Source: Victivallales bacterium
Lineage (GTDB): Bacteria; Verrucomicrobiota; Lentisphaeria; Oligosphaerales; Oligosphaeraceae
Direction of reading: 5' to 3'
Length of the DNA: 34,396 bases
Assembly: GCA_017535315.1 (NCBI GenBank)
Contig: JAFXUD010000029.1
Location: 1 to 34,396, forward strand
Part shown: positions 5,333-28,980 of the stretch, in pieces
How the letters are laid out: every line of letters starts with the position of its first letter
Numbering within the stretch: position 1 is the stretch's first letter
Notes under the pieces: generated by a model
What the model was told of the DNA's origin: nothing
The model's input: only the letters and a program-made list of their open reading frames with translations
The model's database searches: none
Program-made: the position numbers and the translations under genes

Positions 5333-8300
5333 ATGAACCTAAAGCCCCTGTTATTGTCCGCATGCTGCGCATTCCCCCTATTTGCGGAGCCCGTGATTCC
5401 CTTCTTCCAGAAATCGCCAGCGGTGGATGGTGTCATTTCGCCTGATGAGTATGCCCAAGCAGCCACTTTTACGCTCAAGAAAATAAAGGGACGCGGCGAG
5501 CCGACAAACGCCACCACCGTCTATTTCGGGCGCGACAAGGACAACATCTATGTCGCATATGACTGTAAGGAAAAGGAGATGGCCAATATCCGCGCGCAGT
5601 TCAAAACCCCAGAGGAGCGCGACAACAACATCTTCAATGACGACTGCATCGAGTTCCAGTTCGACCCATGGAACGCCCCCGATCGCAAGGAGGTCATCCG
5701 ACAGTTCATCGTCAACTCCAATGGCATTCTCTACGATGCCCTGGGGCCTGACCGCTGGAAGGACTGGGACGTTGCGGTCAAAACCTCCAAAGGCGCAAAC
5801 GGTTGGCAGGTAGAGCTGGCCGTGCCCATTCTCCCCGTCTGCGGCTATGCCCCGACAGGCGCTGAACTCTGGCGGTTCAATCTCGCCCGCAACAATCCGC
5901 GCCTCAAGGAGCCTTGCACCATGACGGGCGGCAGTCCAAGGGGCTTCAACGCCCCCGAAAACTTCCTCACCTACAGAAGTGGAGAAGCAACCACTCCTGT
6001 CACCATCCTCGCCAAAACTCAAGACGAAATCAGGTTCCGCGCAGAAAAGCCCTGCACCATCACCATGACGCAGCTTCGCGCGGACGGCAAGCTGCTAGGG
6101 AATCCACAGAGCCTCGCGCTGAAGCAAGGCGAAGAGGGTTCCCTGCCCATCAAGCAGCAGAAAGGTGCCTCCACCTTTCAGGTGATAACAGAAGGCTGGA
6201 AGCTCACCTGGGAGGCGGAAACCGTCCAGGAGCCATCCCCCATCGTCAAGATGACCCAAAACCCGCTTTACCGCGAGCTTTGGGGCACCGAGTACACAAT
6301 GCAGGCACGGGAGGGGGCGACACTTGCCCACCATGGGCTTGACCCCAAATGGACAACCTCCGCCTTCCAGTTCGGTCAGGAGTGGAGCGGAATCGAGAAG
6401 ACGCGCAACGCCCTCCAAGACGGGCTAATCATTGAGGGACTTCCCTCCATTCTCAGCGCTTTCGGCTTTCCAGAGGCCATCCCCGAGTTCAAAGCGTGCG
6501 TTACCCTCATGAACTACATGATACATATCCCCAAAGGAGTTCCGCGCTTTCTCGGCAAAATCTTCCTTCTGGCTGGCGAGGAGAGCAAACAGAGTTACCT
6601 GAACAACATCCGCGAAAACCCCAACTTCCAAAAATACAGGAAGAACCTCTGGGGTTTCTGGTTCGGCGACGAGGTTTCAGAGCACCAGGAGGAAGGGCTT
6701 CTGCATTTCATGGAGCATCCCAAGGAGTGGCCAGGCATCACCGACTTGAACGAGAAAATCAAGGAGAAGTACGGCCACCCGCTTCCTTCCTCCAACGCCG
6801 ATCCCGACCCGCTGAAATGGATTGCCATGAGGCGCTATGTCCAGGACGAGCTTCTTGACCTGAGCAAACGTGCATACGCCACTGTCAAACAGGAGTTTCC
6901 AGGGGTGCATTTTATCAGCGACGACCCCATGGGCACGCACAAGATATACGACTTCGCCTATTTCACTCCCGATGTCGCGGAATATGTCTGCTTCCAGCTT
7001 TATCCAAGGAACCACCATCAGATATCCGACTTCAGCGCCAAAACGAAGTATGTGGCGGACCTCTCCACTTGCGAGTACATGACCCCATGCCCACATGTTG
7101 AAAACTACGGCGCAGACTACAAGGTCGAGGAGGTCATCGAGAAGCTGAGCCAGGCCGTCCGCGCTGGAGCCGTCGGCTTCCACCTCTATTTGGACGATGT
7201 CACTGGGCAGCGGGACGGGCGTCGCTCTATCTGCTGCGATCAATTCGGAGCCCCCGAACGCTACCAGGCGATTCTCGCAGTATTGAACGAGATGAAGAAT
7301 ATGCCCCGTCTGCGTTTCCCAGAGGCGGACTGTGGTTTCTTTATCTCCGCCAATGCCATCCGCGCAACCCCCCACCATGTCAACGCGCCAGACGCGACCA
7401 TCGCGCTACACTCGCTCTTGGAGAACACCAGCGGCTGTTGGTTCAAGTACTTCTCGGAGGGCTCCATCCACCTTGGTCAGGTTGATCTCAGCAAATACAA
7501 GGCGGTCTTTGTCCCCTATTCAAAGTATCTGGAGGCAGAAGCCATGGCGGCGCTGGAGAGATACGTCCAGGACGGCGGACGATTGGTCGTCATGGACCCA
7601 GAGGCCTTCATGTTCACTCCAGTTGGCGAAAGCCTAGCGGCCCGCAGGACGGCATTGACAGGCATTGTGGAATCAAAGCAGGGACGCAATGCGAAAAACG
7701 TTTACATCGGCGATTCCATCGTCCCCGTACTCGGCTCAAAGACATGGGACTTTGCCGTTGCGGATGGTGTCACCGTCCTTGGCAAGTTTGACGATGGGCG
7801 TCCTGCCCTCATTCAGCACCGCTTTGGCAAGGGTGAGGTGATGACCTTCGCCTCTGATTTGCTCCACCTCGAAAATGTTAAGAACGAGGGTCTTCGCACC
7901 TATTTCCGCAAGTTGACGGGGAGCCTTGGCCTGGAGCACGACTGCGACATCTGGCGCTTCCGCTTCCCGTTCTCCATCATCAAGCGTCCTCAAGGCCATC
8001 CTGGCCGCTGCCTGACCAACAACTACGTCTTCTGGGAACGTTGCAAACCGCTTTTCGGCGCCAACGACAAACTGCCCAACACCACCTACAGCTATTCCGT
8101 CGCTCCCGATACCCCCGCCGACAATCCTGCCGTGGAAGAACGGCATCCTTTCGACAAGGGACGCTTGACCGACCGCCGCACACAAATAAAACTTGGAAAC
8201 GTTGGTCGCCCGCCTGAAGATTTCGCCAAGGCCATCGTCGGCTGGAAGAGCCCAGCCCCCTTTGAAATCTCCTTCGACCTGGGCGAGGTGCGTACAGTCG

Positions 8301-8623
8301 AGACTGTGGAGGTTTTCACGCATGGTGTCATGCGCGACATCACGCTTTCTGTCTCGGAGGATGGCACGAATTACGAAAGCCACTCCTTCCCCGCAAACCA
8401 TGCCAAGGAAGACAGTAACCTGACCATTACCCGTAAGGCCATGCCGCTGCCGAATCCGCGCCAGGTGCGCTACTTGAAGCTCGCCTTTGCTGAATCCACT
8501 AGCAAAGCCCCCATCCATCCCGAATTCTCCAAAATCGACAAAATCTTCATCAAGGGAATTGAGGCGGGTCACTTCACCGAAGCCAACTTCCAAATCTCCG
8601 AAATCGAAATCTGGGGAAAATGA
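5333..8623 (+). CDS. Large secreted glycan-active protein: CBM9-like, TIM-barrel, GATase-like and discoidin-like domains
   Basis: 1096 aa with a signal peptide (MNLKPLLLSACCAFPLFA, cleavage near residue 18-19). Residues ~20-215 resemble a CBM9/DOMON-type sugar-binding domain (VDGVISPDEY, DDCIEFQFD, WQVELAVP). Residues ~320-650 look like a glycosidase-type barrel; WGFWFGDE at ~440 has acidic residues positioned as a possible acid/base, but no family signature is decisive. Residues ~660-840 resemble the beta-galactosidase trimerisation (GATase1-like) domain (YKAVFVPYSKYL, VQDGGRLVVMD). Residues ~930-1096 look like an F5/8-type (discoidin) module. The start is supported by AGGAG 7 nt upstream. 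No catalytic residue assignment is certain. It may be a hydrolase or a binding protein acting on surface or dietary polysaccharides. Confidence 0.75.
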   Translation: MNLKPLLLSACCAFPLFAEPVIPFFQKSPAVDGVISPDEYAQAATFTLKKIKGRGEPTNATTVYFGRDKDNIYVAYDCKEKEMANIRAQFKTPEERDNNIFNDDCIEFQFDPWNAPDRKEVIRQFIVNSNGILYDALGPDRWKDWDVAVKTSKGANGWQVELAVPILPVCGYAPTGAELWRFNLARNNPRLKEPCTMTGGSPRGFNAPENFLTYRSGEATTPVTILAKTQDEIRFRAEKPCTITMTQLRADGKLLGNPQSLALKQGEEGSLPIKQQKGASTFQVITEGWKLTWEAETVQEPSPIVKMTQNPLYRELWGTEYTMQAREGATLAHHGLDPKWTTSAFQFGQEWSGIEKTRNALQDGLIIEGLPSILSAFGFPEAIPEFKACVTLMNYMIHIPKGVPRFLGKIFLLAGEESKQSYLNNIRENPNFQKYRKNLWGFWFGDEVSEHQEEGLLHFMEHPKEWPGITDLNEKIKEKYGHPLPSSNADPDPLKWIAMRRYVQDELLDLSKRAYATVKQEFPGVHFISDDPMGTHKIYDFAYFTPDVAEYVCFQLYPRNHHQISDFSAKTKYVADLSTCEYMTPCPHVENYGADYKVEEVIEKLSQAVRAGAVGFHLYLDDVTGQRDGRRSICCDQFGAPERYQAILAVLNEMKNMPRLRFPEADCGFFISANAIRATPHHVNAPDATIALHSLLENTSGCWFKYFSEGSIHLGQVDLSKYKAVFVPYSKYLEAEAMAALERYVQDGGRLVVMDPEAFMFTPVGESLAARRTALTGIVESKQGRNAKNVYIGDSIVPVLGSKTWDFAVADGVTVLGKFDDGRPALIQHRFGKGEVMTFASDLLHLENVKNEGLRTYFRKLTGSLGLEHDCDIWRFRFPFSIIKRPQGHPGRCLTNNYVFWERCKPLFGANDKLPNTTYSYSVAPDTPADNPAVEERHPFDKGRLTDRRTQIKLGNVGRPPEDFAKAIVGWKSPAPFEISFDLGEVRTVETVEVFTHGVMRDITLSVSEDGTNYESHSFPANHAKEDSNLTITRKAMPLPNPRQVRYLKLAFAESTSKAPIHPEFSKIDKIFIKGIEAGHFTEANFQISEIEIWGK

Positions 8624-8895: not shown

Positions 8896-11064
8896 ATGAC
8901 TAAAGAGCAGATATCCACCTCCCCCTGGCGCGCCAAGTTCGCCTGGTTCTGGTACAACACAGCCGAGATTTTCCATTTCACGCAAGAGGATATGGACAAG
9001 AAGATGGCACGCTATACCGCTCAAGGCATCACCCACGTCATCACCTTCAGCAGCACCCACTTCCGCTGGTCGTTCAAGCCATGGTGGCCACAAATCAATG
9101 CCTGCATCGCCAAAATCGTGAAAAGCGCCCATCGGTATGGCATCAAGGTAATCGAGCACCACTCCAGTTGCCTCACCTGGTGCCCCGACCCTGAAATCTC
9201 CCCTGCCCACCGCACCGCCTTTGAAAATGGCCTGAAGGGACGCAACAGTTCCGTCGAGGACTTCCCTGGCATCGTCGAATACTGCCTCGACCTAACCAAG
9301 CCCGAAAGCCAGTGGGAGCAAATCGACGCTGTTTCAGGCAACCGCCTTTCGTGCCGCTACCATGGACACATCAAGTGCCCAAGCAACCCCGACTACATGA
9401 AAGCATATCTCCACTATCTGGAAGAGGTCTATGCCACGGGCGTCGATGGAATCATGACCGATGACATGGGTGCAGAAGAACATTTCATCTATCCCAAGGA
9501 CGGAGGCCCCGTTGTCCGCATCCACAGCAGTTGCGGCTGCAAATACTGCCGTGAACGCTTCCGCAAGGAGTACGGCTATGAATTCCCGTCTGGCGACCAG
9601 TGGAAAAAATGGTACGGCAATTTGGAGGACAAGACCTTTCAAGACTACCTTCATTTCCAGATGGAGAAGTTCCTTGATTTCCACCGTACTATCAAACGGC
9701 ATTACGAGGGGCTTGGTCTGAAGATGTTGCGTCCAAACTATACCTCCTCCCCTATGACCTCGAATCGGTACTGCTCCAATCCATGCACCTACCCGCAACT
9801 TGACTGGTTCTTCCAGGAGTGCATGTACAGCCGCGCCATCCGCTACTCATGGCCGCATTTTCTGACACAGCAAAAACTAATCGCCATGGTCGCCAGGCGT
9901 CGCAACATCCCCCACATGATGATGTTCTACGCGAACCGTCCCGATACCCTCCTCTTCTCCTTCGGCATCTGCCGTCTGGCAGGTGCCATGCTCACCAACA
10001 CACCTGAAGGGGAAAACAATACCGATGAAACTGCGCTGAGGCGTTTTGAGGACAACTATGCCTCCCTTCTCTTTGACGTCTCAGAGCTTCCCGTTGTCGG
10101 CTTCCTAGATTCTGAAGCGAATCGCTTCTATGGCGCAGGCTATCTGGAGACACGCCTCACATACTGGCTGAAAGTCACCTTCTTCAAGAACATACCATCC
10201 ACCATGTTCAGCATCGAAGAGCCTGAAAACTGGAACGTTCCCGTCCTTGTCTGCAATGAGCTGCATCTCCTTGCCGACAAGGAGATTCGCGCCTTGCAGG
10301 AGTATGCCAACAAGGGCGGTTCTCTCGTGCTGACAGGCATCTGCGGTGAACAGGATGCGGACGGACGCTTCCGCACACGTGAGGAAATCAACGCCATCTG
10401 GGGGCTCGACCTCTATGATGAAGCCATCGCGGATTCCTATAAAACCATTCCATACGGGAAGGGAAGCATCACCATCGTTGGCTACAATTTCGGCTATCAC
10501 GCCGACAAACAAGCCAACTACAGGCACTATGTCTTCGATGAAAGGCGCCGCAACAGCGACTACGTCGATCATCCGCGAAGCGATATCTTCGTCTTGCAAA
10601 TGCCGCGATACGGCCATGAGAATACAGGTCATCCACTCGAAGACTACTATGCCATCTACGATGAACTGGCTCCCCAGATTGACGCCATTGCGGCTCTTCT
10701 GACGGGTCTTGCCAAAGACCGCCTCTCTTTCCAGGCTGAACTTCCGAAGCATGTCATCGCCGTGCCCTTCCACAGCCCATCCGCACATGCCATAGCCATC
10801 CAGTTGTTGAACGCGACAGACACCCTGCCCACCCATAAGGGACAACTTGTCTCCCACGGCGACCCAATCCCCTTCCCCGCCTGGAATGGAGACGACGGCA
10901 TCCTGCGTATATCGCTTCCAGATGATGTACGCGCAGAATCCGCCTTCTTCGCCGATGTGTCAGGCACACATATACCACTGCATCTTACAGTGAAAGACAA
11001 TACCGCGACGGTCACCCTTCCCGCTGGCACCCTAAAGGACTATGGAATGGTCTGCATCAAATAA
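8896..11064 (+). CDS. GHL6-like putative glycosidase
   Basis: 722 aa with no obvious signal peptide. The N-terminal half is a TIM-barrel-type glycosidase-like domain: WFWYNTAEIFHFTQ, then GVDGIMTDDMGAEEHF at ~180-196 with two adjacent Asp, and a Cys cluster CGCKYCRERF at ~213, the pattern I associate with hypothetical glycosyl hydrolase 6 (GHL6) proteins. Residues ~445-480 (VPVLVCNELHLLADKEIRALQEYANKGG) resemble the GATase-like beta-galactosidase trimerisation domain. It shares architecture with the protein at 20934-23006, so the two are probably distant paralogues. The ribosome-binding site is weak (GAAGAA). The substrate is unknown. Co-location with a CBM9 protein and an esterase points to glycan degradation. 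Confidence 0.7.
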   Translation: MTKEQISTSPWRAKFAWFWYNTAEIFHFTQEDMDKKMARYTAQGITHVITFSSTHFRWSFKPWWPQINACIAKIVKSAHRYGIKVIEHHSSCLTWCPDPEISPAHRTAFENGLKGRNSSVEDFPGIVEYCLDLTKPESQWEQIDAVSGNRLSCRYHGHIKCPSNPDYMKAYLHYLEEVYATGVDGIMTDDMGAEEHFIYPKDGGPVVRIHSSCGCKYCRERFRKEYGYEFPSGDQWKKWYGNLEDKTFQDYLHFQMEKFLDFHRTIKRHYEGLGLKMLRPNYTSSPMTSNRYCSNPCTYPQLDWFFQECMYSRAIRYSWPHFLTQQKLIAMVARRRNIPHMMMFYANRPDTLLFSFGICRLAGAMLTNTPEGENNTDETALRRFEDNYASLLFDVSELPVVGFLDSEANRFYGAGYLETRLTYWLKVTFFKNIPSTMFSIEEPENWNVPVLVCNELHLLADKEIRALQEYANKGGSLVLTGICGEQDADGRFRTREEINAIWGLDLYDEAIADSYKTIPYGKGSITIVGYNFGYHADKQANYRHYVFDERRRNSDYVDHPRSDIFVLQMPRYGHENTGHPLEDYYAIYDELAPQIDAIAALLTGLAKDRLSFQAELPKHVIAVPFHSPSAHAIAIQLLNATDTLPTHKGQLVSHGDPIPFPAWNGDDGILRISLPDDVRAESAFFADVSGTHIPLHLTVKDNTATVTLPAGTLKDYGMVCIK

Positions 11065-11101: not shown

Positions 11102-13120
11102 CTATTCCGTCTGCTGGTGGAAGAGCTTGGCGTAGAAACCGTTCTTTTCAAGCAATTCCTTATGGGTACCGTATTCGGAGATGATGCCGTTCTCGATGAC
11201 GGCAATCTTGTGGCAGCGCATGGCCATGGAGACGCGCTGCGAGACCATGATAGCAGTCTTGCCCACTAGAATCTGCGCCAGCGTCTCCTGGATTTTGCGT
11301 TCGGTGTTGGCATCCAGAGCGGAGGTGCAGTCATCCAAAATCAGCAGGTCGGGGTTCGTGAGAAGGGCTCGCGCGAGGGAAAGGCGCTGTCTCTGGCCAC
11401 CAGAGAGGCTGCTGCCCTTCTGGCCGATTAGCGTCTCGTACTGCACCTTCATCTCCATGATGAAATCATGCATCTGGGCGGCCTTTGCCGCGTTCATGAT
11501 CTGCTGGTTGGTGGCATTTGGACGCCCATAGCAGATATTATCGCGCATGGAACCACTGAAAATCTGCGCCTCCTGCGGAACAATGCCGACGCGATGCCTG
11601 AACGAGCCTAACTTGATGTCCTTGATGTTGATGCCATCGATGAATATATCGCCGAAGGTAGCCTCGTAGAGGTGGGAGAGGAGGTGGAGCATGGTGGTTT
11701 TGCCAGCTCCCGAGGCTCCCATGATGCAGAGCCATTCGCCAGCTGGCACGAAGAAGTTGATGCCCTTCAGAACGGGCTCGGGCGGCGGGGCTGGCGTGGT
11801 GTCTTCGATGATGCCCTCCTTGTCACTGCGTGGCGCAGGATAGGCGAAATAGAGGTCCTTCACTTCAATGCCCTTGGTCATGGGCGACGGAAAATCGACG
11901 GAATTGGGCTTGTCAGCGATTTCAATCTTCTTGTCCAACACGCTGACTACACGCAGAAGCGCCGTGCGCAGCCGTTGCAGCACAAAGGAGAGCTGTGCAA
12001 ACTCTAAAACGGGCTGGAAGAGCGTCATCGTCGTGCTGTGGAGGAACATCATGCGGCCAAGCGTCATGTCGCCGTCCAGCACCATCTTGCCGCCATAGAG
12101 GAAGATGGCGCAGCTGCTCAGGCTTGTCAGGATGCCTGCCTGCCGTCCAAGTCCCGCGCTGACGCGGAGGGCGGTCAGATTGTCGCGAAGCGAGCAGGCG
12201 ATCATGCGGTGGAAATTCAGGAGTTCGCCCTTTTCGCGCGCATAGGCCTGAATCGCCTTGATGCCGTCAATCTTCTGGGTGACAAGACCGTAAAGGCAGG
12301 CGTTCGTATGGCGAAGTTCAATGTTCAGGCGGCGTATCAGAGGGCGCTTGTAGCGATACATGAAGGCATAGATAGGGGTAATGCCGAAGGCTATCAGCGC
12401 CATCCGCCACTCTTCATAGAGCAAAACGGCTGCGCCAACGATAATCATCGACGTGCAGTGGGTCGCGCTCATGAACAGTCCCATCATCTCCGCGCGGACA
12501 GAATCCACGTCCGACAGAATACGCGAAAGGAGGCGCCCAGGGCTCATCGACTGGTGGTAGGCCATGGACAAATCCAGCACCTTCTGGTGCATGTCCTCGC
12601 GGAGGCTCCCCGTGATGCCCTGCGCGACGATGATCTGCTGACGCGTGGAAAGGCGCGCCAGGAAATTCAGCGCAATCTGCGTCCCCATATAGAACATGGC
12701 GATGATGAGCAGATGCCGCCCAGCTTCAGGCTCTCTTGCGCTGACACGTGCGCCATTGTCGATTTTGCGCCCCATGCTGACCGTGGGACGGCTTCTCGAC
12801 AGCCTCTCCCTGTCGGGTTGCCAGATTCGCTGCCGTTCGCCGTCCTGTGGAGCCACCTCCGCCTTCTTGTTGTCCCCCTTGATGACCAGGATGTCATCGA
12901 CGACCAAGCGGTTGTAGAAGCTCATCAGATAGGTCGAGGAGGAGTTTGTGGCCACGATGAGGATACATATTAGCAAGGACCACCGCTTGGGCCAGGCATA
13001 TTTCTTGATGAATCGCCAATAGAGGGGCCAGTCCGTCCCACTGTCATCTGGGATATGCTTAGGCGGTCGGAAGGGGATGTTCCGATGGTGTTCTTTTATG
13101 TTGTTGCTGAAGAAAAGCAT
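11102..13120 (-). CDS. ABC half-exporter with degenerate ATPase site (subunit 2)
   Basis: 672 aa permease-ATPase fusion. The membrane domain spans residues ~40-400, with a long polar insertion after the first membrane segment (~75-130, rich in Arg and Lys). The ATPase has Walker A GASGAGKT (468-475) and a canonical signature LSGGQ (572-576). Walker B ends ILDD, so the catalytic Glu is Asp597, and the switch His is Gln628 (SQRVS). An insertion follows the A-loop (FAYPAPRSDKEG). The start at 13120 has GAGGGG upstream and lies 13 bases after the stop of the partner gene; a longer open frame extends upstream but lies out of frame within the partner and is not coding. It is the last gene of a five-gene operon and is likely the degenerate partner of a heterodimer with the 13134-14909 product. 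Confidence 0.93.
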   Translation of the reverse strand: MLFFSNNIKEHHRNIPFRPPKHIPDDSGTDWPLYWRFIKKYAWPKRWSLLICILIVATNSSSTYLMSFYNRLVVDDILVIKGDNKKAEVAPQDGERQRIWQPDRERLSRSRPTVSMGRKIDNGARVSAREPEAGRHLLIIAMFYMGTQIALNFLARLSTRQQIIVAQGITGSLREDMHQKVLDLSMAYHQSMSPGRLLSRILSDVDSVRAEMMGLFMSATHCTSMIIVGAAVLLYEEWRMALIAFGITPIYAFMYRYKRPLIRRLNIELRHTNACLYGLVTQKIDGIKAIQAYAREKGELLNFHRMIACSLRDNLTALRVSAGLGRQAGILTSLSSCAIFLYGGKMVLDGDMTLGRMMFLHSTTMTLFQPVLEFAQLSFVLQRLRTALLRVVSVLDKKIEIADKPNSVDFPSPMTKGIEVKDLYFAYPAPRSDKEGIIEDTTPAPPPEPVLKGINFFVPAGEWLCIMGASGAGKTTMLHLLSHLYEATFGDIFIDGINIKDIKLGSFRHRVGIVPQEAQIFSGSMRDNICYGRPNATNQQIMNAAKAAQMHDFIMEMKVQYETLIGQKGSSLSGGQRQRLSLARALLTNPDLLILDDCTSALDANTERKIQETLAQILVGKTAIMVSQRVSMAMRCHKIAVIENGIISEYGTHKELLEKNGFYAKLFHQQTE

Positions 13121-13133
13121 ATCTACCCCTCGA

Positions 13134-14909
13134 CTAGTCCTCGATGACGCCCTTGCCCATGTGCTTGGTATAGAGCTCGTGATACCGTCCGTTCGGGATG
13201 GCCATAAGCTCGTCGTGAGTGCCGCGTTCCTGGATATAGCCCTTGTCCAGCAGGATAATCTGGTCGGCGTTCTTGATGGTGCTGAGGCGGTGCGCCACGA
13301 CAAATGAGGTGCGTCCCGCGAGAATCTTGTCCATGGCGCGCTGGATGGCCTGCTCGGAATCGCTGTCGAGTGAGCTGGTGGCCTCGTCCATGATAAGGAT
13401 GGCGGGGTCTGCGCAGATGGCTCGTGCAATGGTGATGCGCTGCTTCTGGCCGACGGAGAGTTCCACACCGAAATCGCCGACAAGCGTGTCATAGCCGTCG
13501 GGCAGGGTCATGATGAAGTCGTGGATTTCAGCGGCCTTGGCGGCATTGATGATCTCCTCGTCGGAGGCGAGAGGCTTGCCGTAGCGGATATTGTCCTTGA
13601 TGCTCGTGCTGAAAAGCAGGGATTCCTGCAGGACAATGCCGAACTGGCGTCTGAACTGGTGCAAGTCCAGTTTCTTGATGTCGTGGCCATCGATGAGCAG
13701 TTCGCCGCCCGTGATGTCGTAGAAGCGGAGAATCAAGTTGAGGATGGTGGATTTGCCGCAGCCAGTTGGCCCGATGAGGGCGGTGGTGTCGCCTGGCTTG
13801 CAATGGATGGTGATGTCCTTCAGGACGGACTTGCCCTCCTCGTAATGGAATTCAACGTTCTTGAAATCCACCTCGCCGCGCATCCTCGGTATGGGGATGG
13901 GATTCGGATCATTCACCACTTCGGGACGTTCGTCGAAGATTTCAAAAAGACGGTCCGTTGCAATGGCAACCTGCTGCAGCTGGCTGATGAGGTTGGAGAA
14001 TCGGACGGCTGGCCCGAGCAACTGCATCGCGTATGCCGTGAAGGCGGTCACCTCGCCGTAGGTCAGGTCGCCTGTAATGATCATCCCGCAGCCGAGGAAG
14101 AAGATGATGGAACGCCCCAGGCTGTGAATCAGATTCACGTTCATGCCGAAGGTGTTGCCAGCGATGCCCTGCTCCTTTTCGAAGGCCATGGTGGTGTCGG
14201 ACTGCTCCTTGAAGACATTGTTCTCACGCCCCTCCGCCCCGAACGTCTTGACCGCCATATTGGCGACCAGGCGGTTCTGCACGCCGCCCGAAAGGCGGTC
14301 GTAAGCACGCCGCGTATTTCGGCTCGCCTGGATGATAGGCTGGATAGTGAACTTGTAGTTTAAAACAAACACGATTACCAGCAAAAACAGCACAATCGAC
14401 AACCGCCAGTTGATGGCGATGGTCGCCACTATCGCAAAGGTGGAACAGACCAGGTCGGAGATGATGCCTACGCTCTGCCCCGTCAGCATGTTCTGCACAG
14501 TACTGGAATCGCCCATCAGACGATAGACCAGTTTCCCGACGCTGTACTTGCTGAAAAAGCGAAGCGACAGATTCAGAAAGTGGTTGTAGAGCGCACAGCG
14601 GATGTCAAAGACAAACTTCTGTCCCAGAAAGGCGATGCTCATCGTCTGGAAAAAGCCGCAGGTGGCAGAGAGAACTGGCAACATAATCATCAGAAGCCCC
14701 AGCGGAAAAAACAGGCTGGTATCCCCCTGCGTAAACACCTTGTCAACCAACTGCATCGTCACAATCGGTGGAATCATCGCCAGAACCGAGAGGAGAATGG
14801 TCAGACCCAGCAGCGAATACAACCGCAGATAATACGGGCGCATGAAAACAAGAATCTTGACGATATTGCCAAGATTCTTCTTTTTATCTAGATCGCTCTG
14901 CGCCGACAT
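13134..14909 (-). CDS. ABC half-exporter with intact catalytic Glu (subunit 1)
   Basis: 591 aa with an N-terminal six-helix membrane domain (~20-320) and a C-terminal ATPase. Walker A is GPTGCGKST (380-388). Walker B reads LIMDEATSSLD with the catalytic Glu at 509, and the switch His is 540 (AHRLS). The signature motif is LSVGQ (484-488) rather than LSGGQ. This complements the neighbour exactly: in heterodimeric exporters such as TM287/288 the subunit keeping the Glu often carries the altered signature. It is fourth of five genes, 49 bases after the adaptor gene. No C39 peptidase domain is present, so a leader-processing exporter is not supported. Substrate unknown. Confidence 0.94.
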   Translation of the reverse strand: MSAQSDLDKKKNLGNIVKILVFMRPYYLRLYSLLGLTILLSVLAMIPPIVTMQLVDKVFTQGDTSLFFPLGLLMIMLPVLSATCGFFQTMSIAFLGQKFVFDIRCALYNHFLNLSLRFFSKYSVGKLVYRLMGDSSTVQNMLTGQSVGIISDLVCSTFAIVATIAINWRLSIVLFLLVIVFVLNYKFTIQPIIQASRNTRRAYDRLSGGVQNRLVANMAVKTFGAEGRENNVFKEQSDTTMAFEKEQGIAGNTFGMNVNLIHSLGRSIIFFLGCGMIITGDLTYGEVTAFTAYAMQLLGPAVRFSNLISQLQQVAIATDRLFEIFDERPEVVNDPNPIPIPRMRGEVDFKNVEFHYEEGKSVLKDITIHCKPGDTTALIGPTGCGKSTILNLILRFYDITGGELLIDGHDIKKLDLHQFRRQFGIVLQESLLFSTSIKDNIRYGKPLASDEEIINAAKAAEIHDFIMTLPDGYDTLVGDFGVELSVGQKQRITIARAICADPAILIMDEATSSLDSDSEQAIQRAMDKILAGRTSFVVAHRLSTIKNADQIILLDKGYIQERGTHDELMAIPNGRYHELYTKHMGKGVIED

Positions 14910-14958
14910 ATCAGTCGTAAGGATGTTTAAGTGTTATATGCAAATGCATATAACCACA

Positions 14959-16068
14959 TTACAAGTCAAGATTGAAAAGATAGAGCCAAAGGCAGGACTT
15001 GCCGTAGTAGATGCGTGCCTCGGCCGTTGTGCCTGGGGGAATTTCGCGGTCGCCTGGGTCAAAGGAGCAGTAGGCCACACGGTAGGTGGCGTTTCCATCC
15101 TGCTGGATGACGCTGCGCAGATACTCGATATTTCCACGGAAATATTGACGGATAAGTCCCTTGAAGGAGGTCAGCCGCGCACGGTAGGCCTGCCCTTCGG
15201 CGACCTTCATCGAATAGCGCTCGTTGATGCGCAGTTTCAAAACCTGCTTGTCCCCGCCGAAAATCTCGTAGATGACGTTGCTGGGCTGCAAAAGCTCGCC
15301 CTCCACAAACTCATAGCGCACCACCACGCCTGCCTTCGGAGCGCGCACCTGTCGCGTACGCAGACGCGCCTCCGCGCGGCGCACAGCATCTGTCAGCGCC
15401 GACAGTTCGTTTTCAATGGCGGTTATCTCGCAGTCGTATTTCTTGCGGTCCAGTTCCAGCAATTTGCGATAGTGGGTAAAATCCTTGTTCTGGAGGGAGA
15501 CCAGGGTCGTCTCCGCCAGCTGGGCCGTCAGCATGTCGTCCTCCAGATTGGTGGCTGCCTTCAGCCCCTTCTCCACCAATTCCTTGGTCAGCTTCAGCTT
15601 GGTCTTGGCATTCTCCAGGCGCAACTTGGCAATGGCGATGTCATCCGTATGCGTGCGTTCCTGTTCGGAGAGGTCCAGTTCGCGCCGCTCCAAGTCAATG
15701 TTCATTTCTGCCTTACGGCGTTCCAGTTCGACCTGCAGTTTCGCATGACGTGCCTTTGTTTCCGCAAGCGTCGCCTCCTCCTCCTCATTGTTCAACTGGA
15801 CGAGAAGCTGCCCTGCCTGGACCTGGGCGCCCGTCTTGACAAGAATCTTGCTCACGGTGCCCGTCACGGGGGGACGCACCTCCGCGTACTCCTCCGTCGT
15901 GACATAGCCAGACGCAACGGTATAGCGGTCTATCTTGATGTACAGGCCTGCGGCAATCACTCCTGCAATAATCAGGAAGGCAAGGAAAGTGTAGATGACC
16001 TTCCGCTTGTTTGTCTCCTTTTGCGGCAGTGGCTTGGATTCCCCAAGTGTGGTTCTTAAATCACCCAT
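14959..16068 (-). CDS. HlyD-family periplasmic adaptor
   Basis: 369 aa. A short cytoplasmic N-terminus is followed by one membrane segment (~24-45), then a half-lipoyl beta region (RPPVTGTVSKILVKTGAQV) and a long charged coiled coil (~95-235, many Glu/Lys/Arg). The second half-lipoyl follows (VRAPKAGVVVRYEFVEGE), then a beta-barrel region ending in TTAEARIYYGKS. This is the order expected for membrane fusion proteins bridging an inner-membrane transporter to a TolC-type channel. It lies between the Cys-rich gene and the ABC pair, and 53 bases separate it from the Cys-rich gene. It would act in the periplasm, anchored in the inner membrane. Confidence 0.92.
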   Translation of the reverse strand: MGDLRTTLGESKPLPQKETNKRKVIYTFLAFLIIAGVIAAGLYIKIDRYTVASGYVTTEEYAEVRPPVTGTVSKILVKTGAQVQAGQLLVQLNNEEEEATLAETKARHAKLQVELERRKAEMNIDLERRELDLSEQERTHTDDIAIAKLRLENAKTKLKLTKELVEKGLKAATNLEDDMLTAQLAETTLVSLQNKDFTHYRKLLELDRKKYDCEITAIENELSALTDAVRRAEARLRTRQVRAPKAGVVVRYEFVEGELLQPSNVIYEIFGGDKQVLKLRINERYSMKVAEGQAYRARLTSFKGLIRQYFRGNIEYLRSVIQQDGNATYRVAYCSFDPGDREIPPGTTAEARIYYGKSCLWLYLFNLDL

Positions 16069-16121: not shown

Positions 16122-16943
16122 TCACGGCTGTTTTTTCTCGGCGGCCTGCTTTTTCTCCTGGCTCTTAGCGCTGATCTTCTCAAGCAGGCGCAGCTCCTCC
16201 GCCTCGTCGCTGTAGCGTTTCACGCACAGGTTGCAGGTATTGCAGTTGCGGTCATAGCAGTCGCGATGGACGCGGGAGGGATACATCTTGCGGAAGGCCT
16301 CATAGCACTCGTCGCAGCAGAAGCAGTAGCGCTCCTGCATCGTGCCGAAGGCAACGTGAATCAGGTGGAAGCCGTCCTTGTTCACATTCGCCTCGCCACC
16401 GCACCAGGCGCAGGTGACCTGCATCTGCTCGCGCGCCTGCTTCTCGCGCTGCTCCAACTCCTCCTCGCTCCAGCCATACTCCACCCATGAGAAGCCGTTG
16501 GCGGGAATGCGCGCATAGACCACTGGACCACGGATAACCAGGCAGCCTCCCGTCTTCAGAACGTAGGCATGGTCGCCTTCGATGACCTCGTTGGAGCCTG
16601 TCAGATGCACGCGCACCTTGCCGCTCTTCGGCGAATCATACTTGTTCCAGCCGCAGGATTCGCAGATGTTCGCAGCCAGATGCTGGCTCAGATGCTCGCC
16701 GCAGACAGGGCAGCGCCCCAACTGGATGATGTGAATCTTCTTGAGCGAATCCTCCGCCGCGCTTTGGACCTCGCGCTCCGCGACCTTTTGCAGCCGTTGT
16801 TCATGCGTGCCATCCTGGTCGCCCAGGATGGATTTGTCCGATTCCAGATACTCGCGCTGCTCCTCTGGCAGGATCACTTGCTTCTTTTCACTCTGGGATT
16901 CCTCTTCCTTGCTACCCCAGCCAAAAAAACTCTTCATGGGCAT
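16122..16943 (-). CDS. Cys-rich, zinc-ribbon/TRASH-like protein of the export operon
   Basis: 273 aa, no signal peptide or membrane segment, so cytoplasmic. There are 15 cysteines in three groups: CPVC...CESC (78, 81, 94, 97), a zinc-ribbon pattern; CAWC with YCFCCDEC (178-213), which looks like a treble-clef TRASH/YHS-type domain; and C229-x4-C-x2-C-x2-C, which could bind zinc or a cluster. Between the first two groups lies a beta-rich segment (KVRVHLTGSNEVIEG). Both ends are highly charged. The start at 16943 has AGGAGA 7 nt upstream. It sits between the TolC and HlyD genes of the operon. I cannot name its role. Metal sensing, a substrate-handling adaptor and a regulator are all possible. 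Confidence 0.75.
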   Translation of the reverse strand: MPMKSFFGWGSKEEESQSEKKQVILPEEQREYLESDKSILGDQDGTHEQRLQKVAEREVQSAAEDSLKKIHIIQLGRCPVCGEHLSQHLAANICESCGWNKYDSPKSGKVRVHLTGSNEVIEGDHAYVLKTGGCLVIRGPVVYARIPANGFSWVEYGWSEEELEQREKQAREQMQVTCAWCGGEANVNKDGFHLIHVAFGTMQERYCFCCDECYEAFRKMYPSRVHRDCYDRNCNTCNLCVKRYSDEAEELRLLEKISAKSQEKKQAAEKKQP

Positions 16944-16984
16944 ACTCTATCTCCTAAAGGCTTAACTGATTGCGAACGATTTCG

Positions 16985-18424
16985 TCAAGGCTGATAATAT
17001 CCAGTGGCATAAAGGTAATTGGCGCGTGCGCGGAGCAGATCGGCTGTCGCGGTAGTCTGCCGCTGCAGAATGGTCGTCAGGTTCTTCTGGGCATCGGTTA
17101 CATTGGTGGAGGTGGCCTCGCCAAGGCGGAAGCGCTCCTGCTGGGCAGCCAGATGATTCTGCGCAGCCTCAATGCCTTCGTTCACCAACGCAAGGCGGTT
17201 TTTCGCTGCCTTGAAGTTCAAAGCGGCATCCTGCATGGCAATATAAATATCCAACTGCACACTGCGCAGATTCTCATTGAGCTCCTTGATGCGCGCACGG
17301 TAGCGCGCCATGCGCGTATTCGGACCGCGGTAGTCGATGTTGCGCTTCCATATCAGGGATATCTCTGTGCCGAAGCGCCTGTCGGTGAGGATTTCATCCA
17401 TTTCAAAGGGGTGGTCAGGGTGTTCACCCTGGGCCGTGACTCCAAAGTTGAGGCTCAGGTCATCCTGCTTTTCCTCTTCCGCCATATCCAACTGGACCTG
17501 CGCATAACGGATGTTGTTTTTGATTTCAAGATAGGCCCCCCTGGCATGGCACGCATCCTGTTCCGAAACCTCAATCAGTTCCACAACCTGCTGTGCCGTA
17601 TCCAGAAGCGCCTTCTGATCCCCTGCCAGGGCCAGATCACGGGAGATGCCGACCGCATTCGCCAGGTTGTGCAAACTCAATTCAAAGGCGACACGCGCTT
17701 TCTCCTCATCTTCACGGCCTATCTGAAGTTCCAGCTTGGAGGAGAATATCTGATAGTCGGAGACTACCTTCATCCGACAGAGCTCAATAGTCTCATCATA
17801 GAGTTTCTGAAATCGCTTCGTCGCCTCCTGGGAGACGCGATACGCCGAAAGTTTCTCGTATGCCGCAATATAGGCCAATTCAATGTCCCGCCGCATGATC
17901 TGCGTGACCTTCAGCAGATTGCTGACGTTCATGTTATACTCCGCCATGGCCAGAGCACGGTTCAACGTCAGGGACTTGAACTGCCTGTCCCGCAAAAGAG
18001 GCACCCGTATGCCAAAGCCATAGATGGTCTGAAACAGCTCGTCATAGCCATTGGGGTCCTTCAGAAGACGCTTTGCGCCGCCAAAGGAGATATAGGCGCC
18101 TGGATTGACAGGCATTTGGAAGCCAACCTGCGCATCGTAGCTGTCGTTCGTCAGAGAGGTCACGTTTGATGCAGGGAAGTTGCGTGCCTTGTCTGCACGC
18201 CCGATGCCAGCAAACAGACTGGGATCGAAGAACTCGTTGAGCTCTTCATGTTTGAGAAGCGCCTGCTCCACCTTCCATTTCGCCGCAAGCACAGCAGGGT
18301 TGCTCTCCTCGCCTTCCTTGAGGAGTTCCGCTAGTTCATTGCCTACGCAAACAGAACAGAAAAAACTCGTTATCGCCGCGGCTGCAAAACACATTATGCC
18401 GCAATAAAAACGCTTTATCATCAC
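16985..18424 (-). CDS. TolC-family outer-membrane channel protein
   Basis: 479 aa with an N-terminal signal peptide (cleavage near residue 28, ...CSVCVG). Two OEP-type repeats are visible by their long alpha-helical stretches: AMAEYNMNVSNLLKVTQIMRR in the first and AAQNHLAAQQERFRLGEATSTNVTDAQ in the second. The latter is the conserved RxRxGxxxxxxVxxAQ helix end. The C-terminus LRARANYLYATGYY is typical. It is first of the five-gene operon and likely the outer-membrane exit for the ABC exporter. No strong ribosome-binding site precedes the start; the ATG three bases later (18421) is equally possible. Confidence 0.92.
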   Translation of the reverse strand: MMIKRFYCGIMCFAAAAITSFFCSVCVGNELAELLKEGEESNPAVLAAKWKVEQALLKHEELNEFFDPSLFAGIGRADKARNFPASNVTSLTNDSYDAQVGFQMPVNPGAYISFGGAKRLLKDPNGYDELFQTIYGFGIRVPLLRDRQFKSLTLNRALAMAEYNMNVSNLLKVTQIMRRDIELAYIAAYEKLSAYRVSQEATKRFQKLYDETIELCRMKVVSDYQIFSSKLELQIGREDEEKARVAFELSLHNLANAVGISRDLALAGDQKALLDTAQQVVELIEVSEQDACHARGAYLEIKNNIRYAQVQLDMAEEEKQDDLSLNFGVTAQGEHPDHPFEMDEILTDRRFGTEISLIWKRNIDYRGPNTRMARYRARIKELNENLRSVQLDIYIAMQDAALNFKAAKNRLALVNEGIEAAQNHLAAQQERFRLGEATSTNVTDAQKNLTTILQRQTTATADLLRARANYLYATGYYQP

Positions 18425-18550
18425 AAATCGTCTAAACTCGTTGTGCCAGTTTATATGATTGAGACTTTACCCCCAAAAATACACCATGCCTATACTATAA
18501 ACCATTTCTCCGATTTCTAAAACCGACAACCCGTTTTTTTTCCAAAAAAA

Positions 18551-18790
18551 GGGAATTATATACTTGAGTTTCCTGATGACATTAGCCTTCATTGGTCGAT
18601 GGCCAAAATGCGCCTTGCCGCTTCGCTGCGCTACGCGGCAAGGCGCACGGAGACTGCGGTGGGCATCTGACCGTGGGTTTCGCTTCGCCGCTGTCGCGGC
18701 TTCCTCCACCCACGGCTATGCTCTTGCCGCCGCTTACGCGGCTCTTCTCTATTGGTAAAGTCCAATCGGCAACTAAAGTATATAATTCCC
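18551..18790. mobile_element. GC-rich hairpin element, copy B, with ~25-bp terminal inverted repeats
   Basis: About 240 bp upstream of the exporter operon. The outer ends are inverted repeats: left GGGAATTATATACTTGAGTT, right the complement of GGGAATTATATACTTTAGTT. CCAAAAAA lies outside both ends and could be an 8-bp target duplication, although it is a low-complexity sequence. The interior carries a perfect 13-bp stem, TGCGCCTTGCCGC (18609-18621) with GCGGCAAGGCGCA (18635-18647), and CCGTGGG (18671-18677) with CCCACGG (18709-18715). This interior is homologous to copy A at 8634-8829, although the ends are unrelated. There is no coding content. It probably belongs to a REP/MITE-like dispersed family. 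Confidence 0.7.
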
Positions 18791-20933: not shown

Positions 20934-23006
20934 CTACTCTGTTTTGAGCAGGAACATGGCGAATTCATTGAGCACGGGGACGGTGAACTCGACACAGTGG
21001 CCTGAGATCTCGCAGGGATATAGCGTCTCATCGGGAGCCAGAAGCAGCTCCGTCGGACGAATGCGGTCGGGGAAGTTCAGCTTGACGCGGATGTCATGGA
21101 GCGGCTGCGCTGGCAAATCCGACGGCAAGTTCAGCAGGCTGATGACCAGCCGCTTTTCATCTGGCTGCTCATAGACGGTGATTTCCGTCGTGCGCGGAGC
21201 GTTCGTCTCCACATATTGCCTGCCACGCAGTTCCTTCAGCAGCGTTATGAGGGCTTTGCGATGGTAGTCCCACTTCACCTCTTCCAGCACGCCAGCACAA
21301 TAGATGACCTCGCCTTTGCCGTAGGAATGGCGGACCAGAGCAGGCGTCCCCTGCGGGAGCATCGGCGGATCGCTGATGCCAGAGGAGAAGTATTCAGGCG
21401 CACCCGCCTCGGAAATCGGCAGCGTCAGCGTGCCTTCAACATGTACGTCCGCATTCGCCTCAAGCACGCATTGCCTGGAGTCCAACATGAGCGGATACTG
21501 CTCCGTTGCAATGCCAGAAAGAAGCGAGCCTTCCGTGGGCGCAATATAGGTGCGTTTCTGCGTCAGGCCACGGTAGTGGACACCGAAGAGCTGCGCGAGG
21601 GCAAAGTCCTCCCGACGCCCTTTTTCTGGGTCATACAAGGAGGCGCAATAACTCGTGTAGAGTTTTCCTCCATTGGCAACATACGTCTCCAGTTCTGCGC
21701 ACTCCTCATCGGTCAAACGTGCGCCAAAGGCGACAAACACGACTGGATAGCGGCTGATGTCATCGGGGAGCATGTGCCCCGTGAAGGTAAAGAGCAGATG
21801 CGCGTCTGCAAAAGCGCGGACGAGATTTTCGCTGTTCGGATTGTAGGCAAAGGCCGCGTCGTTGCGCTTCTCTAGGGGGAGCCTCCCGCAGTCAACATTC
21901 ACACGCGAGGGGAAACTGTAGTAGATGGCAACGTCCGCCAGCGGAACAGAACTGCCTGACACGTACTTTTCATAGCGTGCGTAGGCGTCGTTGATTTCCC
22001 TGGCGTGGTCATAGAAGCGTTCGTCCAGCGTCCCTTCGGGATCAATGGCGTCAATCAGCGTGAACGATGACTGGTTGGCAAGGGCGGCGTATGCGCGCAT
22101 CAGCAGATTCTCGCGGGAGCGTTCCGTCGTATGGAACGCCAGGTTCTCGCAGCGCGGCGTCATGAACTCCATGGGGCGGTGCGGTGAAAAGGCGGAGAAG
22201 AGTTTGCTGATGTAGGACTGCTCGATGGCGTTCCCCGTGAAATCCCCCGCCAGATATTCGCTGGCGCGGATGAACTCCTCGTTCATGCCGCCAGCCCAGC
22301 CGCGTATGAGAGTGGCGCATTGAATGTTCACCGTGCGCTCAGGCGTGCGCGCATGGATGGTCTCGCGAATCCGCGTCGCAAATTCCCCCATACATTTGGA
22401 GCGCCACTGCGCATAACGTGCAAAATGCGGATCGTTCCAGTCGATGAATTGCGGCAGCTCCTCGCCCGTCTCCTCCTTATAGCGCCGCTTGCAGTCGGGG
22501 CACTGGCAGAGGATGGAGAACCAGCCAAACATGTCAATCCAAAAACCCTGCACGTCATAGCGCGAGTTCAGCTCGTCAAGCTCCGCGAGGAAATAGTCAC
22601 CGAAGCCGCCGTTCATGCAGCAGATGCCCCAACGCCCGCCGTTGGTGTCGATGGTTCCCTTGCCGCTTTCCAAAATCATGCGCCATTCGGGGTGCAGCTT
22701 GTACGGCATCGTCGCCCAGTAACTGAAATAGGCCTGGACATCAATGCCACGACGACGGCACGCCGCCACCGTCTCCCCGAAAAAGTCGCGCCCCTTCAGC
22801 TGCTTGTGCGCATACCCCCTTTTCGTCGGGAAAAGGCAGATGCCCAGGGAGTTGCCCGCATAGATTTCCGCACAGGTGACCTGAGCCTTCGCCATCATCT
22901 CCGCATAACGCTCAGGGTCGAATTTGCTGAAAAATCGCTCGTTCCAATCGGGTATATGCTGGTCAACCAGTATCCGTCGCAAATCTCGTTCGTACCATTT
23001 CTTCAT
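20934..23006 (-). CDS. GHL6-like putative glycosidase
   Basis: 690 aa, no signal peptide. A TIM-barrel-type domain covers ~1-380, with QGFWIDMFGW at ~153-162 and a Cys pattern CQCPDCKRRYKEETG (167-181), matching the hypothetical glycosyl hydrolase 6 / alpha-fucosidase-like superfamily. Around 415-470 a GATase-like trimerisation segment (VFVAFGARLTDEECAELETYV) resembles GH42-type beta-galactosidases. The C-terminus is beta-rich. The start at 23006 has a weak GGGG upstream. It lies 82 bases after the phosphatase gene on the same strand and could be read from that operon. The catalytic residues are not assigned; Asp157 in FWIDMF is a candidate nucleophile by analogy. Confidence 0.72.
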   Translation of the reverse strand: MKKWYERDLRRILVDQHIPDWNERFFSKFDPERYAEMMAKAQVTCAEIYAGNSLGICLFPTKRGYAHKQLKGRDFFGETVAACRRRGIDVQAYFSYWATMPYKLHPEWRMILESGKGTIDTNGGRWGICCMNGGFGDYFLAELDELNSRYDVQGFWIDMFGWFSILCQCPDCKRRYKEETGEELPQFIDWNDPHFARYAQWRSKCMGEFATRIRETIHARTPERTVNIQCATLIRGWAGGMNEEFIRASEYLAGDFTGNAIEQSYISKLFSAFSPHRPMEFMTPRCENLAFHTTERSRENLLMRAYAALANQSSFTLIDAIDPEGTLDERFYDHAREINDAYARYEKYVSGSSVPLADVAIYYSFPSRVNVDCGRLPLEKRNDAAFAYNPNSENLVRAFADAHLLFTFTGHMLPDDISRYPVVFVAFGARLTDEECAELETYVANGGKLYTSYCASLYDPEKGRREDFALAQLFGVHYRGLTQKRTYIAPTEGSLLSGIATEQYPLMLDSRQCVLEANADVHVEGTLTLPISEAGAPEYFSSGISDPPMLPQGTPALVRHSYGKGEVIYCAGVLEEVKWDYHRKALITLLKELRGRQYVETNAPRTTEITVYEQPDEKRLVISLLNLPSDLPAQPLHDIRVKLNFPDRIRPTELLLAPDETLYPCEISGHCVEFTVPVLNEFAMFLLKTE

Positions 23007-25805: not shown

Positions 25806-27032
25806 CTACTCGTACCTCAGGCAGTCGATGGGATTGAGGCGCGAGGCGCGCCAAGCAGGGTAAAAGCCAAAGAAAATGCCCACCAATGCGCTGAAGGTGA
25901 AGGAGATGGCGATGGAGGACTCCGTGATGAGGATGGGCCACTTCTGGATGTTGCCGACGATGAGCGCACCGCCCACGCCGCACGCCACCCCTATTAGCCC
26001 GCCAACGCAGGAGAGCACAATGGATTCCAACAGGAACTGCACGAGGATATCGACGGGGCGCGCCCCTATCGCCATGCGCAGACCAATCTCCTTTGTGCGC
26101 TCCGTCACGGAGACCAGCATGATGTTCATGATGCCAATGCCGCCCACCACCAGCGAGATGGAGGCGACGACGCCCAGCAGAATTGTCATCATGCGCGAGA
26201 TGCTGGTGACGCTGTCAACGACCTCCGTCATGTCGCGCACGTCGAAGTCGTCTGCCTTGTTCTTGCCCAGACGGTGGCGCATCCGCAGAAGCGATTCGAT
26301 CTCTGCCTTGGCAGCCTTGAGGTCATCCAGGCTATGCAGACTGACCATCAGCATGTTGACGTTGTTGAATATGGAGTTCTGAAGGACACGTCGCACGGTG
26401 GTGTAGGGCATGATGAGAATGTCGTCCTGGTCCTGCCCCATGGCGTTACTCCCCTTCTTCGCCATGACGCCCAGCACCTTGAAGGGCATGTTCCGCACGC
26501 GGATGGTCTTGCCCAACGGGTTCTCGGAGCCAAAGAGGTTCGTGGCAACCGTCTGACCGATGACGACGACACGCCGTCCGCTCTTCACATCCGCATCCGT
26601 GAAGAAGGAGCCCTCGCCGACATCCCACTTGCGCACGACGGTAAAGTCAGGCCCTACGCCATTGACGCTAGTGGCCCAGTTGTTCGCCATATACATCACC
26701 TGCGCCTGCGAGTTGATCATGGGGCAGACCGCCAGCACATAGTGCGAAATCTCCGATGCGATGCGCTCGCCGTCCTCCGCCGTGAGGGTCGTGCTCATTC
26801 CCGCGCCAAGGCGCGCACCGCCGCTCGACAGACTTCCTGGGAAGACCATGACCAGATTATGCCCCATGCCGCTGATGGAGTTCTGCATCTGCGTCGAGGC
26901 CCCCTGCCCTATCGCGATAACCGCGATGACCGCCGCAATACCGACAATAATGCCCAATGCCGTCAACGCACTGCGCACCTTGTTGCGCCAGATGGCCCGC
27001 AGGGCCACTTTGAATATCATTAGAAAACTCAT
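25806..27032 (-). CDS. MacB-like ABC transporter permease
   Basis: 408 aa. One N-terminal membrane helix (~20-42, RSALTALGIIVGIAAVIAVIAIG), a large periplasmic MacB_PCD-type domain (~45-265), then three C-terminal helices forming the FtsX domain (LLGVVASISLVVGGIGIMNIMLVSVTERTKEIGLRMAIGA). The latter stretch is the conserved MacB/FtsX signature. The ATPase is a separate polypeptide, as in many non-enterobacterial relatives. Its start overlaps the ATPase gene by ATGA. It is the last gene of the four-gene efflux operon and works by mechanotransmission, pushing periplasmic substrates towards the adaptor and TolC channel. Confidence 0.94.
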   Translation of the reverse strand: MSFLMIFKVALRAIWRNKVRSALTALGIIVGIAAVIAVIAIGQGASTQMQNSISGMGHNLVMVFPGSLSSGGARLGAGMSTTLTAEDGERIASEISHYVLAVCPMINSQAQVMYMANNWATSVNGVGPDFTVVRKWDVGEGSFFTDADVKSGRRVVVIGQTVATNLFGSENPLGKTIRVRNMPFKVLGVMAKKGSNAMGQDQDDILIMPYTTVRRVLQNSIFNNVNMLMVSLHSLDDLKAAKAEIESLLRMRHRLGKNKADDFDVRDMTEVVDSVTSISRMMTILLGVVASISLVVGGIGIMNIMLVSVTERTKEIGLRMAIGARPVDILVQFLLESIVLSCVGGLIGVACGVGGALIVGNIQKWPILITESSIAISFTFSALVGIFFGFYPAWRASRLNPIDCLRYE

Positions 27033-27697
27033 TGCACCACCTTCCCGTCGCAGACGACGATTGTCCGTTTCGCGTGAGCCGCGATGTCATCTTCGTGCGT
27101 CACCATCACTACCGTAATCCCCTCGTCGTTCAGGCTGCGCAGGAACTCGACGATTTCAATGGAGGCCTTGGTATCCAGGTTGCCCGTCGGCTCGTCCGCC
27201 AGGATGACAGACGGACGGTTCATCAGGGCTCGCGCAATGGCGACACGCTGCTGCTGTCCGCCCGAAAGTTGCGCAGGCGTATGCCAGAGGCGTCCACCTA
27301 ACCCGACCTTGGTCAGCAATTCAATCGCACGCTCGCGCCGTTCCGCATTGCTCACCTTCTTGCCATAGAAGGATGGCAGTTCCACGTTCTCGATGGCACT
27401 GGTCCTAGGAAGCAGGTTGAAATTCTGGAAGACAAAGCCCAGCTTTTCGTTGCGGATGGCCGCCAACTCGTTGCGGTTCATGCCCGCAACCTCCTTGCCA
27501 TCCAGCAGATAGGAGCCTGAACTTGGAGTGTCCAGGCAGCCAAGTATGTTCAGCAGCGTACTCTTCCCCGAGCCAGAGTGCCCCATGATAGCGACAAACT
27601 CGCCATAGTCTATCTGGAGGGAAACGCCGTTCAGCGCGTTCACCGTGCTCTCCCCCACATGATAGGTCTTGTACATCTCCTTGATTTCAATCAACAT
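27029..27697 (-). CDS. MacB/LolD-type ABC transporter ATPase
   Basis: 222 aa. Walker [11 protein letters not shown]-loop [11 protein letters not shown], signature [15 protein letters not shown], Walker [13 protein letters not shown] and switch His VTHEDD. Length and motifs match stand-alone LolD/MacB-type ATPases. The start is set at 27697 because GGAGGG lies 7 nt upstream of [12 protein letters not shown]; an ATG 15 bases earlier overlaps that same site. It follows the adaptor stop by 18 bases and is coupled to the permease by overlap. Confidence 0.95.
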
Positions 27698-27715
27698 GGC
27701 GAAGCCCTCCATGCA

Positions 27716-28963: not shown

Positions 28964-28980
28964 TCTACACTCCTTATATT

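Follow-up and report, generated by a model that had tools for sequence, protein, structure and literature searches.

Why does an operon for a tripartite exporter contain a gene for a soluble, cysteine-rich protein? The usual description of a tripartite exporter has three parts. In a gut bacterium of the Victivallales, a fourth, soluble part is encoded between the channel and the adaptor, and it is kept across two classes. It survives operon splitting and the absence of the adaptor. The window is the whole stretch of DNA that was analyzed, 34,396 nucleotides of contig JAFXUD010000029.1 (GCA_017535315.1). An earlier note on its sequence had tied the protein to the exporter and suggested substrate handling, metal sensing, or assembly.

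The cysteine-rich gene and its operon

The ORF coordinates given in the earlier note were exact. The gene lies on the minus strand and starts with ATG, and the ribosome-binding site described as good is an AGGAG 7 nt before that ATG. Compared with its nearest relative (96% identity), the gene contains 78 synonymous and 12 nonsynonymous codon differences, and third positions account for 81 of the 96 differing bases. This synonymous excess and third-position bias indicate that the ORF is a real gene whose protein is under purifying selection. It does sit between the TolC and HlyD genes, as first read, and Pfam confirmed both neighbors.

The operon contains five genes on the minus strand in the order TolC/Cys/HlyD/ABC2/ABC1 (Table 1). 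The gaps are 41 nt (TolC to Cys), 53 nt (Cys to HlyD), 49 nt (HlyD to ABC2), and 13 nt (ABC2 to ABC1). A cluster of promoter-like sites (consensus matches only) precedes TolC, and ABC1 is followed by a convergent gene (8896-11064, +), so the unit consists of these five genes.

Table 1. Features of the exporter operon, the cysteine-rich protein, and the MacAB-type operon in the window
Feature	Position	Strand	Basis
Promoter-like sites upstream of TolC	18494..18582	-	Consensus matches only
TolC-family outer membrane channel (ATG at 18421)	16985..18424	-	Pfam
AGGAG ribosome-binding site of cysteine-rich gene	16951..16955	-	Sequence
Cysteine-rich accessory protein gene, 273 aa	16122..16943	-	ORF list, homologs
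Short hydrophobic N-terminal segment (MPMKSFFGWGSK)	16908..16943	-	Homolog comparison; inference
Predicted helical region, residues 25-70	16734..16871	-	Low-confidence model
Zinc ribbon C78/C81/C94/C97	16647..16718	-	Homologs, PDB sequence search, profile matches
Small beta-barrel, residues 108-158, predicted Sm-like/YgdI-like	16470..16622	-	Model and Foldseek
TRASH/zf-FCS treble clef C178/C181/C209/C213, FC-x3-C-x3-F	16278..16412	-	Homologs, profile and fold matches
CX4CX2CX2C cluster C229/C234/C237/C240, then invariant R243	16212..16259	-	Homologs
HlyD-family adaptor	14959..16068	-	Pfam
Conserved cytosolic tail of HlyD (MGDLRTTLGESKP..)	16003..16068	-	Motif comparison
ABC2, exporter half, intact Walker B glutamate, LSVGQ signature	13134..14909	-	Pfam, motifs
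ABC1, exporter half, degenerate Walker B (LDD), LSGGQ	11102..13120	-	Motifs
MacAB-type operon: TolC-family channel	28981-30402	-	
MacAB-type operon: adaptor	27716-28963	-	
MacAB-type operon: ATPase	27029-27712	-	
MacAB-type operon: MacB permease	25806-27032	-	

Other genes were noted around the operon. Three large glycosidase-like proteins with GH42 trimerization or GHL6 matches are encoded at 5333-8623 (+), 8896-11064 (+), and 20934-23006 (-). Six loci of the same family as the window (L051, L052, L053, L068, L088, and L089) carry a gene for an MFS-like transporter of ~395 aa (by eye) upstream of TolC on the same strand. A secreted protein of ~275 to 300 aa (..NGxxExG..PxxWS..) is encoded downstream of ABC1 in L052, L068, L088, L089, and L121; it is found in several genomes of the same family and not in the window. 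A 405-aa ORF at 14842-16059 (+), antisense to HlyD, recurs in many relatives. Long ORFs antisense to the HlyD and ABC genes in many loci were taken as probable codon-bias artifacts.

The pump

The ABC transporter, the HlyD-family adaptor, and the TolC-family channel are encoded together in the window and in nearly all relatives. ABC1 contains 672 aa from the ATG at 13120, just past the end of ABC2. A longer ORF of 796 aa (11102-13492) was rejected as overlong; homologs and spacing put the start at 13120. Asp replaces the catalytic Glu (LDD) in 31/31 ABC1 sequences. ABC2 keeps the Glu, and its signature is LSVGQ in 18 of 19 sequences and LSRGE in the remaining one. The Walker B Asp of ABC1 and the altered signature of ABC2 place both defects in one ATP site. 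Judged from these motifs, the pair is a heterodimeric exporter with a degenerate site. Pfam matched no C39 peptidase or C39-like domain on either half. The TM1-TM2 loop of ABC1 is 58 to 83 aa in 30 tripartite operons versus 21 aa in G113 and G450, two genomes described below, and the long form would fit contact with a periplasmic adaptor.

The cytosolic tail of HlyD has the pattern MGDxRTTxGExxP, and the full MGxxRxTxGxxxP is found in 28 of 39 sequences. None of 18 paralogous adaptors from three genomes has this tail, and no Cys-like gene lies in their flanks. The window also contains a MacAB-TolC operon (25806-30402, -) without a cysteine-rich gene, which is an internal control. ABC1 of the tripartite loci starts with a conserved cytosolic motif, HHRNYxFRPP (window 13120 downwards), which G113 and G450 lack. 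The parts of the exporter are themselves ordinary; what is new is the obligate cysteine-cluster partner.

Anatomy of the cysteine-rich protein

The protein contains 15 Cys in 273 aa (5.5%), versus ~1.3% in neighboring proteins. Twelve of them are invariant in 36 full-length homologs, in three sets of four (C78/C81/C94/C97, C178/C181/C209/C213, and C229/C234/C237/C240), and C134, C207, and C210 vary. The count of 15 in the earlier note was right, but because three are not invariant, it is 12 cysteines that matter. The three clusters described there (a zinc ribbon, a TRASH/YHS-like cluster, and CX4CX2CX2C) are confirmed as the invariant Cys4 sets, which point to three structural zinc sites. The protein is also soluble, as proposed; it contains no transmembrane segment, and its maximum 19-residue hydropathy is 1.08 versus 2.5 for HlyD. 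It has no signal-peptide-like start. The hydrophobic N-terminal segment is present in loose form in all homologs, including the minimal one.

The zinc ribbon has weak matches to bL32 and RpoM, and the PDB sequence search matched no part of the protein but the ribbon. A small barrel sits between the ribbon and the TRASH set. The full-length structure model, built from a seven-sequence alignment, was of low confidence. Residues 108 to 158 were modeled with pLDDT ~70-84, and the nearest structures are Sm, LSm, Hfq, and YgdI-like proteins. Foldseek gives probabilities up to 0.97-0.99 against Sm/Hfq, but with E values of about 0.1-0.3. The barrel is predicted to be Sm-like; with E values near 0.1, we call this a prediction, not an assignment.

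The published zf-FCS consensus is CX2CX14-30FCSX2C (PMC4047054). The TRASH set fits it in 39 of 41 sequences when S or C may follow FC, and in 41/41 with any residue; the window has FCC. Subthreshold YHS matches were obtained for 17 of 38 members (best E 0.004), and the set scores below every curated YHS or zf-FCS cutoff. There was no YHS match in the window's own genome. In a model of residues 165 to 264 (pLDDT 66), the leading fold matches were eL24/Rlp24, a TRASH-type treble clef, and none was significant by E value. The CX4CX2CX2C cluster is found in 41/41 sequences and has no family match.

No Pfam, NCBIfam, or PHROGs family covers the protein, which has weak zinc-ribbon, YHS, and PHF5 matches only. 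A plasmid search gave no match, and the open-access literature searched contains no description of it. The earlier note did not recognize the domain combination, and the database searches likewise give no family. It is a new protein family for annotation.

Short forms of 131 to 190 aa were found in G189, G311, G214, and G150. The barrel is missing from all four, as is at least the ribbon's second half. G150 groups with G246 in the ABC2 tree, and G189, G311, and G214 fall near G283/G201. Shortening probably happened twice, because these neighbors carry full-length proteins. The N-terminal hydrophobic segment and the C-terminal module of TRASH plus CX4CX2CX2C (~70 aa) are always kept. This putative double zinc module is likely the working core.

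Distribution and gene order

The protein was found in 43 of 60 relatives' genomes and, by sequence search, in 41 of 388 genomes of the phylum. A profile search of the phylum sample gave no credible further members. Its additional weak matches (E 0.002-0.009) lay in short frames, mostly across the ribbon, and were taken as unrelated zinc proteins. In a further class sample, 20 of 146 genomes encode it. Matches are confined to the window's own order and one other class; records that carry a name are metagenome assemblies of Victivallales and Lentisphaeria. Each genome with the gene has a single copy.

Gene order was checked at 46 loci, some of them duplicates, and was scored where the contig was long enough and the channel was recognized by BLAST. 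The order TolC/Cys/HlyD/ABC2/ABC1, whose conservation the earlier note had raised, is conserved at nearly all loci in two classes, with G005, G015, G113, and G450 excepted. Homologs are not spread widely away from exporters; the gene is nearly always in the operon, the exceptions being G450 and G005/G015. In none of 40 genomes is it missing from an operon that keeps the other four genes. The one apparent case, G020, was discarded; its contig ends 40 bases upstream of HlyD.

Among the 388 phylum genomes, 40 encode both the cysteine-rich protein and this HlyD, 1 encodes the cysteine-rich protein alone, none encodes the HlyD alone, and 347 encode neither. The HlyD profile matched 41 of the 388 at E below 1e-30. 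Forty score below 1e-90, and all 40 encode the cysteine-rich protein. The 41st match (G222, E 5e-34) was set aside as a distant HlyD whose neighboring ABC gene is a different one. The Fisher p of ~1e-53 for this co-occurrence is inflated by shared ancestry; because the genomes are related it overstates the case, and independent operon breaks matter more. Mean pairwise identity is 0.52 for the cysteine-rich protein, 0.53 for ABC1, 0.48 for HlyD, and 0.36 for TolC. The protein is conserved as strongly as the pump. Its tree and that of ABC2 agree, including one family of the window's order (f4) that groups with the other class in both.

Split operons and genomes without the adaptor

The operon is split in G005 and G015. 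TolC-Cys lies apart from HlyD-ABC2-ABC1, and every part is kept; in G005 the split is well away from contig ends. In G113, ABC2-ABC1-Cys are linked. This genome (94% complete) has no such HlyD anywhere at E 1e-8 and no adjacent TolC. In G450, the cysteine-rich gene follows genes that we take, from reading their translations, to be yicC-gmk, and the ABC2-ABC1 pair is on another contig. It likewise has no such HlyD and no adjacent TolC, and it is 79% complete, so its missing HlyD alone is weak evidence. The ABC pair of G450 is orthologous to that of G113 (47% identical). The best match of the G113 ABC2 in G000 and G037 is the operon's ABC2 (37 to 40%). In the relatives G369, G463, and G264, which do not encode the cysteine-rich protein, the ABC2 orthologue is absent and only paralogue matches of 31 to 36% were found.

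An adaptor and channel are thus not part of every genome with the cysteine-rich protein. Its obligate partner appears to be the heterodimeric ABC transporter, not the adaptor, because G113 and G450 keep the protein and the same ABC pair without this HlyD. The functional tie to the exporter suggested earlier is supported by gene order, co-occurrence, and retention when unlinked. With co-inheritance and the invariant cysteines added, the genomic partnership appears well supported, and matching trees and similar evolutionary rates back it further.

Proposed role and alternatives

We propose, at a probability of about 50%, that the protein is a cytosolic zinc-binding obligate partner of one heterodimeric ABC exporter that presents cargo or gates the pump. 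The protein probably works as part of the pump, because it is kept whenever the pump is kept, even with the genes scattered. Its docking site may lie on the pump's cytosolic face, with the conserved HlyD tail and the transporter as candidates. The tail cannot be the sole dock, because this HlyD is missing from G113 and G450. In the least certain step, it would receive or hold cargo and hand it to the transporter. Alternatively, it could gate ATPase activity until cargo is present. It would act in trans, as a separate chain, like the C39-like domain of HlyB in hemolysin export. We propose this arrangement because the ABC halves have no match to a C39-like domain and are always accompanied by a separate soluble protein. 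Both forms of the mechanism, cargo presenting and gating, are drawn by analogy. More tentatively, and at somewhat longer odds than this main proposal, the system may be a new class of ABC exporter. Its core would be the ABC pair and an obligate, separate cytosolic zinc-cluster subunit responsible for choosing cargo or gating ATP hydrolysis, with HlyD and TolC added or lost.

Co-occurrence alone fits a pump subunit, a cargo-modifying factor, or a dedicated regulator alike. Regulation is the main rival, since there is no domain that does not resemble a fold for binding RNA or sensing metals. The protein would sense metal or redox through its cysteine clusters, bind DNA or RNA, and control the exporter genes. 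TRASH/YHS domains are metal-sensing modules (PMC4626032), and zf-FCS fingers can bind RNA or DNA (PMC4047054). The nearest folds (bL32, Sm/Hfq, and eL24/Rlp24) are all RNA binding, and the compatibility of TRASH, Sm-like, and L32-like folds with such a function counts against a subunit. A regulator may also be unlinked, as the gene is in G450. However, profile searches recognized no DNA-binding domain, the barrel and half of the ribbon were lost in two groups of short forms, and each set of cysteines supplies all four ligands of a site, an arrangement that is usually structural. We consider regulation unlikely, though it is the strongest of the alternatives. A little less probable is a factor that modifies, folds, or metal-loads cargo before export and never touches the pump. 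The same genomic evidence would be expected for it, and RTX export operons offer a parallel in the gene for the acyltransferase HlyC, but the cysteine-rich protein has no catalytic-domain match and most of its invariant residues are cysteines or frame them.

The 12 invariant cysteines would also suit a metallochaperone that feeds metal or a metal-thiol complex to the exporter, and YHS/TRASH domains occur in copper ATPases (PMC4626032). With all three Cys4 sets complete, though, no site is obviously open for transfer, and no metal-resistance genes were recognized beside the operon; we regard this role as improbable. That the protein is itself the exported cargo is very improbable. A cargo gene often lies inside an exporter operon, but this one evolves slowly, is single copy, encodes three complete Cys4 sites, and co-occurs with the pump when unlinked, and no peptidase domain was matched on the ABC halves. 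If the cysteine-rich protein is a pump subunit, it could help to show how such exporters select their cargo. It would also supply a marker for finding the system, namely VHRxCYxxxCxxCxxC in a protein whose gene accompanies an ABC pair.

Comparison with known systems

PVC bacteria have type I-related loci in which a second SecA, HlyD, and sometimes OEP domain proteins form a conserved cluster (PMC4452313). These loci share the superphylum and the clustering of HlyD and sometimes OEP domain proteins with the operon described here. They carry SecA_DEAD, peptidase M50, and GAF proteins and no ABC transporter (PMC4452313). We rejected them as the same system; SecA_DEAD, peptidase M50, and GAF proteins are absent from this operon.

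With TRASH, YHS, and zf-FCS domains, the protein shares the CX2C-x26-FC[C/S]x2C motif, the subthreshold YHS matches, and the leading eL24/Rlp24 fold matches. Unlike them, it scores below the curated cutoffs, and an invariant CX4CX2CX2C cluster comes next.

In degenerate heterodimers, both defects fall in one ATP site (PMC7756269). The ABC pair resembles TM287/288, TmrAB, and TAP in having a Walker B Asp in one half and a noncanonical signature in the other. We know of no coupling of TM287/288, TmrAB, or TAP to an obligate cysteine-cluster protein. Also unlike in them, the TM1-TM2 loop of ABC1 is long where HlyD is present and short where it is not. The pair differs from PCATs in that Pfam found no N-terminal C39 peptidase domain in either half.

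Another parallel is the HlyB-HlyD-TolC type 1 secretion system, in which HlyB has a C39-like domain that handles cargo and is contacted by the adaptor's cytosolic tail (PMC10386944). Both systems have an ABC exporter, an HlyD adaptor with a cytosolic tail, a TolC channel, and a cytosolic module beside the transporter. The system described here differs in its heterodimeric transporter, which has one degenerate ATP site and no recognized C39-like domain, and in the separate cysteine-cluster protein that always accompanies it.
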